Under the pieces are notes generated by a model. The model did not search any database. It was given only the letters and a program-made list of their open reading frames with translations, and was not told the DNA's origin. The translations under genes were made by a program, and so were the position numbers. 24,703 bases of DNA from a virus: positions 1 through 24,703 of the IMG/VR virus record IMGVR_UViG_3300042389_000225; one strand, given 5' to 3'. Of the stretch, positions 3,729 through 12,564 are shown piece by piece. Every line of letters starts with the position of its first letter. The first letter of the stretch is position 1.

Positions 3729-4190
3729 TTGAAAGTTTCAATCGGAAAATACCCTAAGAAAGACGGTAAACAGAAAGTCTCTGTTCGCATTGATCCATGG
3801 GACACATGGAACATGGACGCAACTCTTGCGCTCATCATCCATCCCATGCTCAAGCAGTTGAAGAAAACAACTCATGGCGCACCGTATGTTGATGATGAGG
3901 ATGTTCCTGAGCATCTTCGCACTTCTGCAGCCAAGCCAAAGAAGAATGATTGGGATGTTGACAGCAACCACTTCAAGCGTTGGGACTGGGTGCTCAGCGA
4001 GATGATTTGGGCATTTGGCGAAGAAGTCAAAGACAAAGAACCCAATTTCTGGATTGAGAAACCCAAGTGGAACAAAGACGGCATGGTAAAGGGTGGCAAC
4101 CTAGACAAAGAGAAGAGGGATAAATACCTCGGAAGGAAGAAGAACGCATTCCGCCTTTTTGGAAAATATTATGAGAATCTTTGGGATTAA
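3729..4190 (+). CDS. Conserved phage protein (WDTWNMD / GAPYVDDEDVP family)
   Basis: A 153-residue protein with the blocks RIDPWDTWNMDATLALIIHP, then HGAPYVDDEDVPEHL, then DSNHFKRWDWVLSEMIWAFG. I recall this family from many T4-like and other phages, where it is annotated only as hypothetical. The aromatic and acidic residues are strongly clustered. I prefer the TTG at 3729, because AGGAG at 3715-3719 lies nine bases upstream; the TTG at 3723 would be only three bases away. Rare TTG starts are weak, so expression may be low. Function unknown; it is the last gene before the first sugar island. Confidence 0.78.
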   Translation: MKVSIGKYPKKDGKQKVSVRIDPWDTWNMDATLALIIHPMLKQLKKTTHGAPYVDDEDVPEHLRTSAAKPKKNDWDVDSNHFKRWDWVLSEMIWAFGEEVKDKEPNFWIEKPKWNKDGMVKGGNLDKEKRDKYLGRKKNAFRLFGKYYENLWD

Positions 4191-4192
4191 AA

Positions 4193-4942
4193 ATGATAAA
4201 CAATCTGGACTACTGTTCTTTACAAGAACAGTTTAAAAGATCCGAACCATTCCATCATGTAGTTATTGACAATTTTTTCGATGATAAGACTGCCGCTGAG
4301 ATAGCGAGCAGTTTTCCAGCACACAATGATTCTGTGTGGACTGTTTCTTATGACAATGCTGTAGAAAAGAAGAAAGCCTGTTCGCACTGGGATAAATTTC
4401 CTGCGCCGATTTACTCATCATTGTTCTTTCTTTGTAGTCATAAGTTTGCTGGTGTTCTAAGTCACATTACACAAAACTCAAACATCATCCCAGACTACGG
4501 TCTTCATGGCGGTGGAATGCATTCTCATAGCCGAGATGGCAAACTAAACATCCATAAAGATTATTCGCTACATCCTAAAATGCCATTGATGCGAAACTAT
4601 AATCTTATCATGTACATGACACCAGACTGGAATCCTGAGTGGGGTGGTGGTCTAGAATTTTGGAGTCATGATGAAGAAACGCAGCAACCTAAAGAATGCA
4701 TCACTAAAATTGAGAATAAGTTTAATCGCGCTGTGTTATTCGACACCACGCAAAACTCTTGGCATGGTTTACCCGAAGAATTAACATGCCCAGAAAACAT
4801 AGCGCGAAGAAGTCTGGCTACATACTATTTGAATCCCATAAATAGTAAAGCGGAATCAAGAAAGCGTGCATTATATGCTCCCTATGGAGATCAAAAAAAC
4901 GATCCAAGTGTTCTACAATTTTGTAAAGAGAGAAGTTTATGA
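4193..4942 (+). CDS. 2-oxoglutarate/Fe(II)-dependent oxygenase
   Basis: A 249-residue member of the prolyl-hydroxylase-like 2OG-Fe(II) dioxygenase family. The iron triad is visible as H121-x-D123 (LNIHKDYS) and H191 (SWHGLPE), with R206 (NIARRSLATYY) placed to bind the 2-oxoglutarate carboxylate. Between them lies the expected strand core (NYNLIMYMTPDW, then WGGGLEFW). The family hydroxylates proteins, nucleobases or small molecules using O2 and 2-oxoglutarate. It is the first gene of the sugar island and overlaps the next glycosyltransferase by 4 bases, so hydroxylation of the acceptor or of the sugar is plausible; this is inference. Start ATG 4193 follows the previous stop by 2 bases; an upstream TTG at 4181 is rejected. 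Confidence 0.88.
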   Translation: MINNLDYCSLQEQFKRSEPFHHVVIDNFFDDKTAAEIASSFPAHNDSVWTVSYDNAVEKKKACSHWDKFPAPIYSSLFFLCSHKFAGVLSHITQNSNIIPDYGLHGGGMHSHSRDGKLNIHKDYSLHPKMPLMRNYNLIMYMTPDWNPEWGGGLEFWSHDEETQQPKECITKIENKFNRAVLFDTTQNSWHGLPEELTCPENIARRSLATYYLNPINSKAESRKRALYAPYGDQKNDPSVLQFCKERSL

Positions 4943-9534: not shown

Positions 9535-9791
9535 TGCATTCTTTATCAGAACTCCGTGACTTGCTAGTATCTAAACAGATACAGATACTAGATTATAATG
9601 GTTGGCAACTTAGAGTCGGTGATGACACGTGGGTTATGATACACGATGTTCTTTATTTAAATGGTGAAAAACAAAACCATAAGCAAAAAGGTTTATTTGA
9701 CAAATACAAGAAGGTGAATACAAATGACAATCAAAGCACTCAAGCTCGTAAATGGCGAGGAATTAATTGCGGCAATCGAAGAGGAGAGTGA
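9534..9791 (+). CDS. Small hypothetical protein
   Basis: An 85-residue protein beginning MHSLSELRDLLVSKQIQILD, with GWQLRVGDDTWVMIHDVLY. The first 55 residues look like a folded alpha/beta domain. The last 23 (from about NTNDNQ, rich in N, Q, R, G) overlap the first 68 bases of the next gene in another frame and look unstructured. The TAATG junction with the previous gene supports real translation. No family recognised. The overlap could mean that a shorter ancestral form was extended by loss of a stop. Confidence 0.6.
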   Translation: MHSLSELRDLLVSKQIQILDYNGWQLRVGDDTWVMIHDVLYLNGEKQNHKQKGLFDKYKKVNTNDNQSTQARKWRGINCGNRRGE

Positions 9792-10020
9792 CACTCACAT
9801 CACTTTCACTGACCCAGTTGCTTGCGTTCTCCAGCGCGGTAAAGATGGTGCCCCAGTTCTTGGCTTTATGCCATGGATGCAAGCAAGCAATCCTCCGTTT
9901 ACAATCAACAAGAATCATATTCTTGTTATCTCAGAGGTTGCGGATGAAGTGAAAAACGGGTATAATCAAATCTTCGGGGCAGGAATCGTTGTTCCCCCAA
10001 GGCAGTTAATTACAGGTTAA
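9724..10020 (+). CDS. Conserved phage protein, Sm-like beta fold likely
   Basis: A 98-residue protein, MTIKALKLVNGEELIAAIEE, then HITFTDPVACVLQRGKDG, then NQIFGAGIVVPP. The opening 'K-x-L-K-L-V-N-G-E-E-L-I-A' and the 'DPV' strand resemble small Sm/LSm-like proteins that I recall next to gene 43 in T4-like phages; function unknown. AAGAAGGTG at about 9709-9717 is the ribosome site and confirms ATG 9724. The stop lies 3 bases before the polymerase start, so it is probably coupled to gene 43. Confidence 0.78.
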   Translation: MTIKALKLVNGEELIAAIEEESDTHITFTDPVACVLQRGKDGAPVLGFMPWMQASNPPFTINKNHILVISEVADEVKNGYNQIFGAGIVVPPRQLITG

Positions 10021-10023
10021 AGC

Positions 10024-12564
10024 GTGTCTAATTTTTATACTAATGTCAGCGTCTCTGGTCGATTTATTCTTCTGAGAGGCGTTGAAAATGATAAGAGGGT
10101 CAGACGGAAGGTTGAATTCCGTCCGACCTTTTTTCTTTCCAGTCAAGAGAAGTCTGAGTACAAAACTCTTGATGGTGATTATGTCAAACCAATACAGCCT
10201 GGAACAATTCCAGAGTGTCGTGAATTCTTAGAGAGGTACAAGGGTGTCGACAATTTTCCTGTTTTTGGGAATAATCGCTATGAGTATGCTTATATTGCTG
10301 ATGAGTATCCTGACGATATTCTTTGGGATGTCAGTAAAATACTTATTGCCTATCTTGATATCGAAGTTGGATCCGAGAACGGATTTCCTGAACCAAGAGA
10401 TGCAAACGAAGCAATCACAGCAATCAGTATCAAAGTCAAAGATAATTATTTTGTGTTTGGTTGTGGCGATTATGTCAAGCATCGTGACGACGTGCACTAT
10501 GCAAAATGCCGCGATGAGTCAGATCTCATACGACGCTTCCTCGACCTATGGAGCCGATGGCATCCAGATGTAGTCACTGGTTGGAATGTCGAGCAATTCG
10601 ATATTCCATATCTTGCTAATCGCATCATCAAAGTTCTTGGTGAGGATGAAGCCAAGAAACTCTCGCCGTGGAATCGTATCAGTAAACGCGAAACGACGAT
10701 GATGAATCGTCCAGTAGAGTTCTATGATATTTCTGGGGTTGCTATTCTAGATTACATTCAACTCTATCGTAAGTTTACTTATTCGCAGCAAGAGTCTTAT
10801 CGTCTTGATAACATTGCTCATGTTGAATTGGGTGAAAAGAAATTAGATTATTCTGAGTTCGAAACTCTACATCAATTATACAAGCACGACTATCAGAAGT
10901 TCATTGAGTATAACATCAAGGACGTCGAACTTGTTGAGAAACTCGAAGACAAGATGAAGTTGATTGAACTTGCGTTGACTCTTGCTTATGATAACAAGGT
11001 CAACTACGATGATGTGTTCACACAGGTTCGTATGTGGGACGCGATTATCTACAACTATCTTCTACGAAAGAAAATTGTGATTCCTCAACTTTCTCATAGC
11101 ACAAAGAGTTCGCAATACGAAGGCGCATATGTAAAAGATCCCATTTGTGGTATGCATGAATGGGTTGCGTCGTTTGACTTGAACAGTCTGTATCCGCACT
11201 TGATTATGCAGTATAACATCTCGATGGAAACACTCGTCGAGCCAAAATTATACAATGACAATATGCGTGGGTTTATCAGCAACTGTAATGTCAGCGTTAA
11301 CTCTTTGCTAAATCAAGAAGTTGATACAAGCATCCTAAAAGATCTTGGTGTTACCGTAACGCCGAATGGTCAGCTGTTCCGTACTCAAGAGCAGGGTGTT
11401 CTGCCTGAGATTATGGATAGCATGTACAAAGATCGTACACGCTATAAGAAGTTGGCAATCGAAGCCAAGAAGAAGATCGAAACTGTTCTTGAAGATAAGA
11501 ATCAAGTGGCTTATCTTGAGAAACAAGTTGCTCGATACAATAACCTGCAGTTGGCAAAGAAGGTTACTCTAAACTCTGCTTACGGTGCACTTGGTAATCA
11601 ATACTTCCGCTTCTTTGATACTCGTATCGCCGAAGGCATTACAACGGCAGGTCAGTTGTCTATTCGTTGGATTGAAAAGAAGATTAATCAATACATGAAT
11701 AATCTGCTCAAAACTGATGATGTAGATTATGTCATCGCTTCTGATACTGACTCGATTTATTTGAACATGGGTCCGCTGGTCAAGAAACTTTACCCAGATA
11801 CTTCTGATACCAAGAAAGTTATTAAGTTTATGGATAAGGTTTGCGATGATAAGATCCAGCCGTTCATTGATGCGTCGTATGAAGAATTGAAAGAATATGT
11901 CAATGCGTTTCAACAGCGCATGGAAATGAAGCGTGAGTCATTGGCTGACAAGGCAATCTGGGTCGCTAAGAAAAACTATATTCTCAATGTCTACAATAGC
12001 GAAGGTGTGGCGTATGCCAAACCGAAACTCAAGATGATGGGCATCTCAGCGATTCGTTCGTCTACTCCATCTGCTTGTCGTGCAAAGATTAAAGAAGCAA
12101 TCAATATTGTCATAACACAAACTGAAGATGATTTGCATAAATTTATCGAAAAGTTTCGCAGTGAGTTTAAGAAACTATCTGTTGAAGATATTGCATTCCC
12201 AAGATCCGTTAATGGTCTAAAAGAGTATGCTGATGCTGCGCATATCTTCAAGAAAGGAACACCGATCCATGTCAAGGGTGCATTGGTGTACAATCATTTG
12301 TTGAGAGAATTGGAACTCACCAAACGATATCAGGAAATCAAGGAAGGCGAAAAGATCAAGTTTGTCTATCTAAAACAACCAAATATTTACAATAACAATA
12401 CTCTTGCATTCTTGTCTGGTATTCCCAAGCAGTTGGATGCTGAGCAATATATTGATTACGATCTGCAGTTCGAGAAATCATTTCTTGAACCGCTAGATAT
12501 TATTCTTTCTTCCATTAATTGGAAATCTGAAAAGGTTGAATCGCTAGATTGCTTTTTCGCATAA
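10024..12564 (+). CDS. 43: DNA polymerase, family B (T4 gp43)
   Basis: An 846-residue replicative polymerase with 3'-5' exonuclease (T4 gp43 has 898). Exo I is D112-x-E114 (YLDIEV), Exo II is TGWNVEQFD (N188, D193) and Exo III is Y296-x3-D300 (YNIKDVEL). Polymerase motif A is SFDLNSLYP (D385), motif B is KKVTLNSAYG (512-521) and motif C is DTDS (574-577). All catalytic residues are present, so the enzyme should be active. It starts at GTG 10024, aligned with the T4 N-terminus (MSNFYTNVSV against MKEFYISIET), with only a weak AGG upstream. A terminator-shaped hairpin lies in codons 25-37. In T4 gp43 represses its own translation through an operator at its ribosome site; I see no comparable structure directly at the start here. 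Confidence 0.97.
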   Translation: MSNFYTNVSVSGRFILLRGVENDKRVRRKVEFRPTFFLSSQEKSEYKTLDGDYVKPIQPGTIPECREFLERYKGVDNFPVFGNNRYEYAYIADEYPDDILWDVSKILIAYLDIEVGSENGFPEPRDANEAITAISIKVKDNYFVFGCGDYVKHRDDVHYAKCRDESDLIRRFLDLWSRWHPDVVTGWNVEQFDIPYLANRIIKVLGEDEAKKLSPWNRISKRETTMMNRPVEFYDISGVAILDYIQLYRKFTYSQQESYRLDNIAHVELGEKKLDYSEFETLHQLYKHDYQKFIEYNIKDVELVEKLEDKMKLIELALTLAYDNKVNYDDVFTQVRMWDAIIYNYLLRKKIVIPQLSHSTKSSQYEGAYVKDPICGMHEWVASFDLNSLYPHLIMQYNISMETLVEPKLYNDNMRGFISNCNVSVNSLLNQEVDTSILKDLGVTVTPNGQLFRTQEQGVLPEIMDSMYKDRTRYKKLAIEAKKKIETVLEDKNQVAYLEKQVARYNNLQLAKKVTLNSAYGALGNQYFRFFDTRIAEGITTAGQLSIRWIEKKINQYMNNLLKTDDVDYVIASDTDSIYLNMGPLVKKLYPDTSDTKKVIKFMDKVCDDKIQPFIDASYEELKEYVNAFQQRMEMKRESLADKAIWVAKKNYILNVYNSEGVAYAKPKLKMMGISAIRSSTPSACRAKIKEAINIVITQTEDDLHKFIEKFRSEFKKLSVEDIAFPRSVNGLKEYADAAHIFKKGTPIHVKGALVYNHLLRELELTKRYQEIKEGEKIKFVYLKQPNIYNNNTLAFLSGIPKQLDAEQYIDYDLQFEKSFLEPLDIILSSINWKSEKVESLDCFFA
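10096..10135 (+). terminator. Terminator-shaped hairpin inside gene 43
   Basis: GACGGAA (10103-10109) pairs perfectly with TTCCGTC (10117-10123) around a 7-base loop. The stem continues past one A/C mismatch with GGTC (10098-10101) and GACC (10125-10128), and further with A10096/G10097 against T10129/T10130. Six T follow from 10129. This has every feature of an intrinsic terminator, 73 bases after the GTG start. It may attenuate polymerase transcription, act as an RNA control element, or be a coding coincidence. Confidence 0.5.

Follow-up and report, generated by a model that had tools for sequence, protein, structure and literature searches.

A hairpin directly followed by a U-run lies inside the DNA polymerase gene (gene 43) of an aquatic T4-like virus, and on comparative grounds the two probably constitute a selected intrinsic (Rho-independent) transcription attenuator within the polymerase coding sequence. 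Selection almost certainly acts on the hairpin structure: the hairpin is real, is selected beyond the protein code, is kept up by compensatory changes and is evolutionarily coupled to its U-run. The window, i.e., the whole stretch of DNA analyzed, comprises 24,703 nt (IMG/VR record IMGVR_UViG_3300042389_000225), and the features discussed are the following:

9572..9599, + strand: promoter-like site TAAACA-16-TATAAT, 5' of the Sm-like gene; weak
9724..10020, + strand: gene for an Sm-like protein of 98 aa, directly 5' of gene 43 (PF16243, E 4e-6)
10024..12564, + strand: gene 43, DNA polymerase, 846 aa, GTG start, containing the HP2 element (PHROG and Pfam)
10046..10085, + strand: HP1, second conserved coding hairpin, gp43 codons 8-21 (synonymous null, covariation)
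10098..10128, + strand: HP2, terminator-like hairpin, gp43 codons 25-35 (pairing, MFE, synonymous null, covariation)
10129..10138, + strand: U-run TTTTTTCTTT, directly 3' of HP2, codons 36-39 (Phe-Phe-Leu-Ser, of the last only the first T)

The product of gene 43 is a family B DNA polymerase, with PHROG and Pfam DNA polymerase B matches. The stop codon of the Sm-like gene lies 3 nt ahead of the gp43 start, and in the named cyanophages examined gp43 likewise has a gene before it at this position. The match of the window's Sm-like protein to PF16243 is just under the curated cut-off; the protein (LSm fold) also shows profile similarity to PDB 3by7. The promoter-like site is rated weak, as only some of the relatives have it equally far upstream, and a search of the relatives for a conserved promoter before the Sm-like gene was not convincing. 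Searched by Megablast, cultured phages gave no match to the region.

The arms of HP2, GGTC-A-GACGGAA (10098-10109) and TTCCGTC-C-GACC (10117-10128), enclose a loop of 7 nt (GGTTGAA, 10110-10116) and form 11 Watson-Crick pairs with one A·C mismatch (A10102/C10124). The seven inner pairs are G10103-C10123, A10104-T10122, C10105-G10121, G10106-C10120, G10107-C10119, A10108-T10118 and A10109-T10117; past the mismatch follow C10101-G10125, T10100-A10126, G10099-C10127 and G10098-C10128. Six T (10129-10134) and then CTTT come after the hairpin, and G-U and A-U extensions lengthen the stem into this T-run. The structure starts 72 nt into gene 43 (from base 73). Our recount of the pairs agrees with the initial annotation, which had placed a stem with one mismatch and six T inside gene 43 at these positions. 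A stable GC-containing hairpin and a U-run immediately 3' of the stem (TTTTTTCTTT), as expected of an intrinsic terminator, are thus both present.

HP2 folds with an MFE of -22.4 kcal/mol, which none of 200 dinucleotide shuffles equaled (z -4.3). A consensus terminator scan of the window includes HP2 among 5 sites, against 5.9 expected; with no general excess of terminator-like sites, such a scan by itself would not single it out. The appropriate null is a synonymous one, in which the peptide is fixed and codons are redrawn at the frequencies found in the gene itself: of 3,000 such recodings not one was as stable (z -5.4), and HP2 is the most codon-improbable of 2,464 coding windows across the 24.7 kb (z -6.6). 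The hairpin might have arisen by chance from the conserved peptide RVRRKVEFRPTFFL, since recodings often give weak hairpins (null mean -7.6 kcal/mol) owing to the partial complementarity of the Arg and Pro-Thr codons. The observed stability is nevertheless beyond all 3,000 recodings, and the covariation and synonymous conservation described below argue against it as well; we regard coincidence, which the initial annotation had left standing, as refuted and its residual probability as negligible.

Among 42 related lineages, separated by nucleotide differences of 7% or more, none of 2,000 recodings was as stable in 23 lineages and at most 7 were in 26; for the window the count was also 0 of 2,000. 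The inner stem varies between ACGGAA/TTCCGT, ACGAAA/TTTCGT and GCGAAA/TTTCGC, and L050 and L085 carry a different sequence, AGGTTGAGAAGG/CCTTCCAACCT, amino-acid changes included. At the same site the L085 stem reads GGTTG.GAAGG/CCTTCCAACC, and L190 has a stem in another register, CGTCGGAAG/CTTCCGACG, followed by TTTTTT. Overall 97.5% of HP2 pairs are kept in the relatives, with two-sided exchanges between A-U and G-C at two stem positions, so the compensatory synonymous changes that had been proposed as a check are indeed found. Synonymous differences amount to 0.21 in codons 24-37 compared with 0.38 in the rest of gene 43, and codons 25, 26, 34, 35 and 36 are invariant; low synonymous change by itself is no more than suggestive, as 39 of 735 windows of the same length are as conserved or more. 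L050 and L057 have a poor U-run (TTCTAT) yet retain the pairing, weakly in L057. The stem is missing at the site in L053, L080, L192 and L221 and in S-PM2, S-SKS1 and P-TIM68, which indicates that the element is dispensable or replaced.

HP1 starts 22 nt past the first base of the start codon. Only 3 of 3,000 synonymous recodings are as stable, and it covaries in the relatives, one pair being A-U in 12 and U-A in 12. In L053, L040, L190, L025 and L219 its stem of 15-17 bp is perfect or nearly so, and HP1 is strongest in several lineages without HP2. Having no U-run, HP1 needs an explanation other than termination. The initial annotation had also raised an RNA switch. Despite this conserved upstream hairpin, neither a ligand nor a competing fold was identified, and Rfam gave nothing above the curated threshold anywhere in the window; the switch is therefore unsupported, whereas the attenuation suggested alongside it gains from the compensatory stem changes and the co-evolution with the U-run.

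In marine Kyanoviridae (S-T4, P-SSM2, S-CREM1, S-H38, MED4-213) and marine contigs, codons 9-34 form a single long hairpin, with its last pairs formed at the homologous Pro-Thr codons, immediately 5' of C-TTTTT-G. The stems closing this hairpin are:

S-T4: GGTCGGG/CCCGACT
P-SSM2: GGTTGGG/CCCAACC
S-CREM1: GGTAGGTGA/TCACCTACC
S-H38: AGTAGGGGA/TCCCCTACT
MED4-213: AGTTGGAGA/TCTCCAACT

The long hairpin is 91% paired and has a covariation score of 0.235, compared with 0.104 or less for slid versions; one of its P1 pairs is C-G in 23, U-A in 7, A-U in 3 and U-G in 2, with no break. Different hairpins, also with U-runs, lie in the stretch between codons 17 and 38 in syn9, Syn30, S-SSM4 and S-SSM5, and a gene-wide scan of gp43 in 112 lineages has a hot spot at codons 34-36. 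Beyond the Kyanoviridae, four T4-like phages, AR1 (T4 group), Aeromonas Ahp1, Vibrio K491 and Sinorhizobium phiM7, have no terminator-like structure in the first 100 codons of gp43. In L245, L248, L258, L259, L276 and L296 a hairpin ACTCTTGATGG...CTGTCGAGAGT precedes TTTTAT at gp43 codons 46-67. This structure has only moderate support (z -2 to -4.4) and a weak U-run, and is possibly a relocated element, in lineages that mostly lack the terminator at codon 35.

Stem and U-run are kept together in relatives. Where Leu-Phe follows Pro-Thr in marine lineages, the codons are CTT TTT in 35 of 35 lineages with the stem compared with 4 of 30 stemless ones (Fisher 3e-14), while codon usage predicts 8.4 of 35 (about 8 in each group). 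Likewise, 25 of the 27 stem-bearing lineages of the window clade use TTT for the first Phe, with 14 expected. With a tree made from the remainder of gene 43, the element left out, 13 of 18 independent pairs showed joint change of stem and U-run and 0 showed change in opposite directions (median p 0.0002). The amino-acid motif P-T-[LF]-[FY] itself gives a U-rich site. Block recombination of the 5' end could inflate the coupling; it would not explain that many different stem sequences share one U-run.

Across the alignments G-U cells outnumber A-C cells by 148:33, 34:1 (HP2) and 107:14, which favors RNA of the mRNA-sense strand as the selected molecule. The arms do constitute an imperfect inverted repeat, as a protein-bound palindrome or a hairpin of single-stranded DNA would, but a DNA element would not be expected to retain G-U wobbles and reject A-C (34:1 in HP2), nor to have its U-run constantly on the same side, and we hold this explanation to be very improbable. 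The terminator d-score is +18 to +23 for the window hairpin and 13 to 53 for three intergenic terminators of a 173-kb relative (G001). Most marine long hairpins score close to or under the classical d threshold (near or below zero), consistent with at best partial termination.

Intrinsic terminators and attenuators are well known, for instance those in front of E. coli dnaG and in pyrBI, as is the T4 operator upstream of gp43. Like the intrinsic terminators and attenuators, the gp43 element has a GC-rich hairpin just before a U-run, placed to lower a downstream replication gene, and as in leader and intercistronic attenuators, control by translation is possible. In contrast to known attenuators, it lies within an essential polymerase ORF, where every base is also part of a codon, and its register has been rebuilt differently between lineages. 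Methylophage Melnitz carries a glutamine riboswitch / tmRNA cassette (PMC9004378). The similarity to the window consists of RNA-based regulation and a related gp41-type helicase (61.5% identity); locus and structure differ, the window has no Rfam match, and the gp43 of Melnitz shows no hairpin-plus-U-run at the homologous site. We found no report of a conserved terminator within gene 43 in the open-access literature searched.

Sm/Hfq proteins generally bind U-rich RNA beside hairpins, and with an Sm-like gene directly upstream in the window, and a gene at the same position in named cyanophages, the hairpin and/or U-run might serve as an operator bound by gp43 or the Sm-like protein, controlling translation or mRNA stability. 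The conservation of HP1 without a U-run would fit such a role, and the gp43 proteins of T4 and RB69 self-repress their translation via an RNA hairpin (PMC3014915), here too in the mRNA of the same gene and potentially regulating the same protein. That operator is a hairpin of 16-18 nt with a conserved UAAC-type loop, about 40 nt upstream of the start, which overlaps the ribosome-binding site and has no U-run (PMC3014915). In contrast, the element of the window lies inside the gene, 70-110 nt past the start, with a variable loop (GGTTGAA in the window) and a U-run; T4-like AR1 has no such element at its gp43 site. As stem and loop sequences are free to vary, and the U-run, needless for a gp43 operator, is lost along with the stem, we consider an operator unlikely. 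Varying stem sequence, a constant stem-plus-U-run shape and the prevalence of G·U over A·C fit an attenuator better than a protein-binding site or a DNA palindrome.

Termination could also be incidental to another role in the mRNA, such as slowing the ribosome for folding of the N-terminal domain, or mRNA protection or processing. In the window clade and the marine clade alike, codons 8-36 are folded throughout, HP1 does without a U-run, and strong coding hairpins show a roughly twofold higher frequency early in genes of the close relative G001 (27 of 3020 windows in the first 180 nt against 40 of 9618 beyond 360 nt, p 0.004), dCMP deaminase being an example. Against this, the stem-adjacent U-run of gp43 is kept far above codon usage and is gone when the stem is gone, which makes such a role a poor candidate, with a low probability, somewhat below that of an operator.

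Codons 25-45 of the dCMP deaminase gene of G001 (L331:3410) form a very strong hairpin, CCCGTCGACAAAG...CTTGTCGACGGG, with TTTTAA after it (L331:3481-3543); the hairpin is kept in 17 of 22 lineages, mostly before TTTTAA and with at least two unrelated stem sequences, and is absent from the window homolog (897-1385). Small early genes of G001 have terminator-like coding hairpins 45-115 nt in (L331:6803-6879 and L331:6270-6390; CACCCAACG/CGTTGGGTG TTTTCG and CTCGGCGATTCTC/GAGAAGTTGCCGAG TTTG). In the window, the second most codon-improbable hairpin (AAGACTGCCGC...GCGAGCAGTTTT, 4286-4315) is located about 105 nt into ORF 4181-4942, which has a weak endonuclease V-like match, and a hairpin GCAGTTCGAGAAATCATTTCTTGAACCGC (12460-12495, z -5.2 against synonymous recoding) lies near the end of gene 43. 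A proper U-run is rare among the coding hairpins genome-wide in G001, so a wider class of attenuators inside genes is a possibility rather than an established fact. Tentatively, and with the odds against it, Kyanoviridae-like phages might use 5'-proximal intragenic attenuators in early and replication genes, with termination testing the translation of a new transcript; if true, the class would span gp43 and, in relatives, dCMP deaminase and small early genes, overwritten on the code.

Besides about 16 tRNAs, G001 has a permuted (two-piece) tmRNA fitting the betaproteobacterial model (L326:12763-13127, tag ANDDSFTPMALAA); searches of G001 for the photosystem reaction-centre family, Chloroa_b-bind and CpeT gave no match. 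From the tmRNA type and the absence of photosystem matches, the host of G001 is probably a freshwater betaproteobacterium, and that of the window's clade probably not a cyanobacterium. Cyanobacteria lack Rho (PMC5100998); an explanation by a Rho-less host was dropped for this clade on account of its probable host.

For the attenuator, we propose that once the first ~110 nt of gene 43 are transcribed, codons 25-35 (9-34 in the marine phages) would fold just 5' of the U-run, where RNA polymerase would terminate with partial efficiency. A fraction of the transcripts from the upstream Sm-like gene would then stop at about 10130-10136, and transcription of gene 43 and of the replication genes that follow would be lower than that of the Sm-like gene. 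More speculatively, as the element sits just past the initiating ribosome, an early ribosome on gene 43 might open the hairpin, so that poor translation would lead to more termination, and HP1 might delay the translating ribosome. The adjacent Sm-like protein is a possible partner of the hairpin, and control through it, given the 3 nt between the genes, is speculation.

The cultured phages with and without the element provide natural controls, and the terminators of such phages are worth seeking inside genes, not only between them. A single sequence holds both polymerase code and a terminator-like RNA signal, conserved in a major aquatic virus family, and the prediction is that premature termination limits the expression of the polymerase and the downstream replication genes in these phages.
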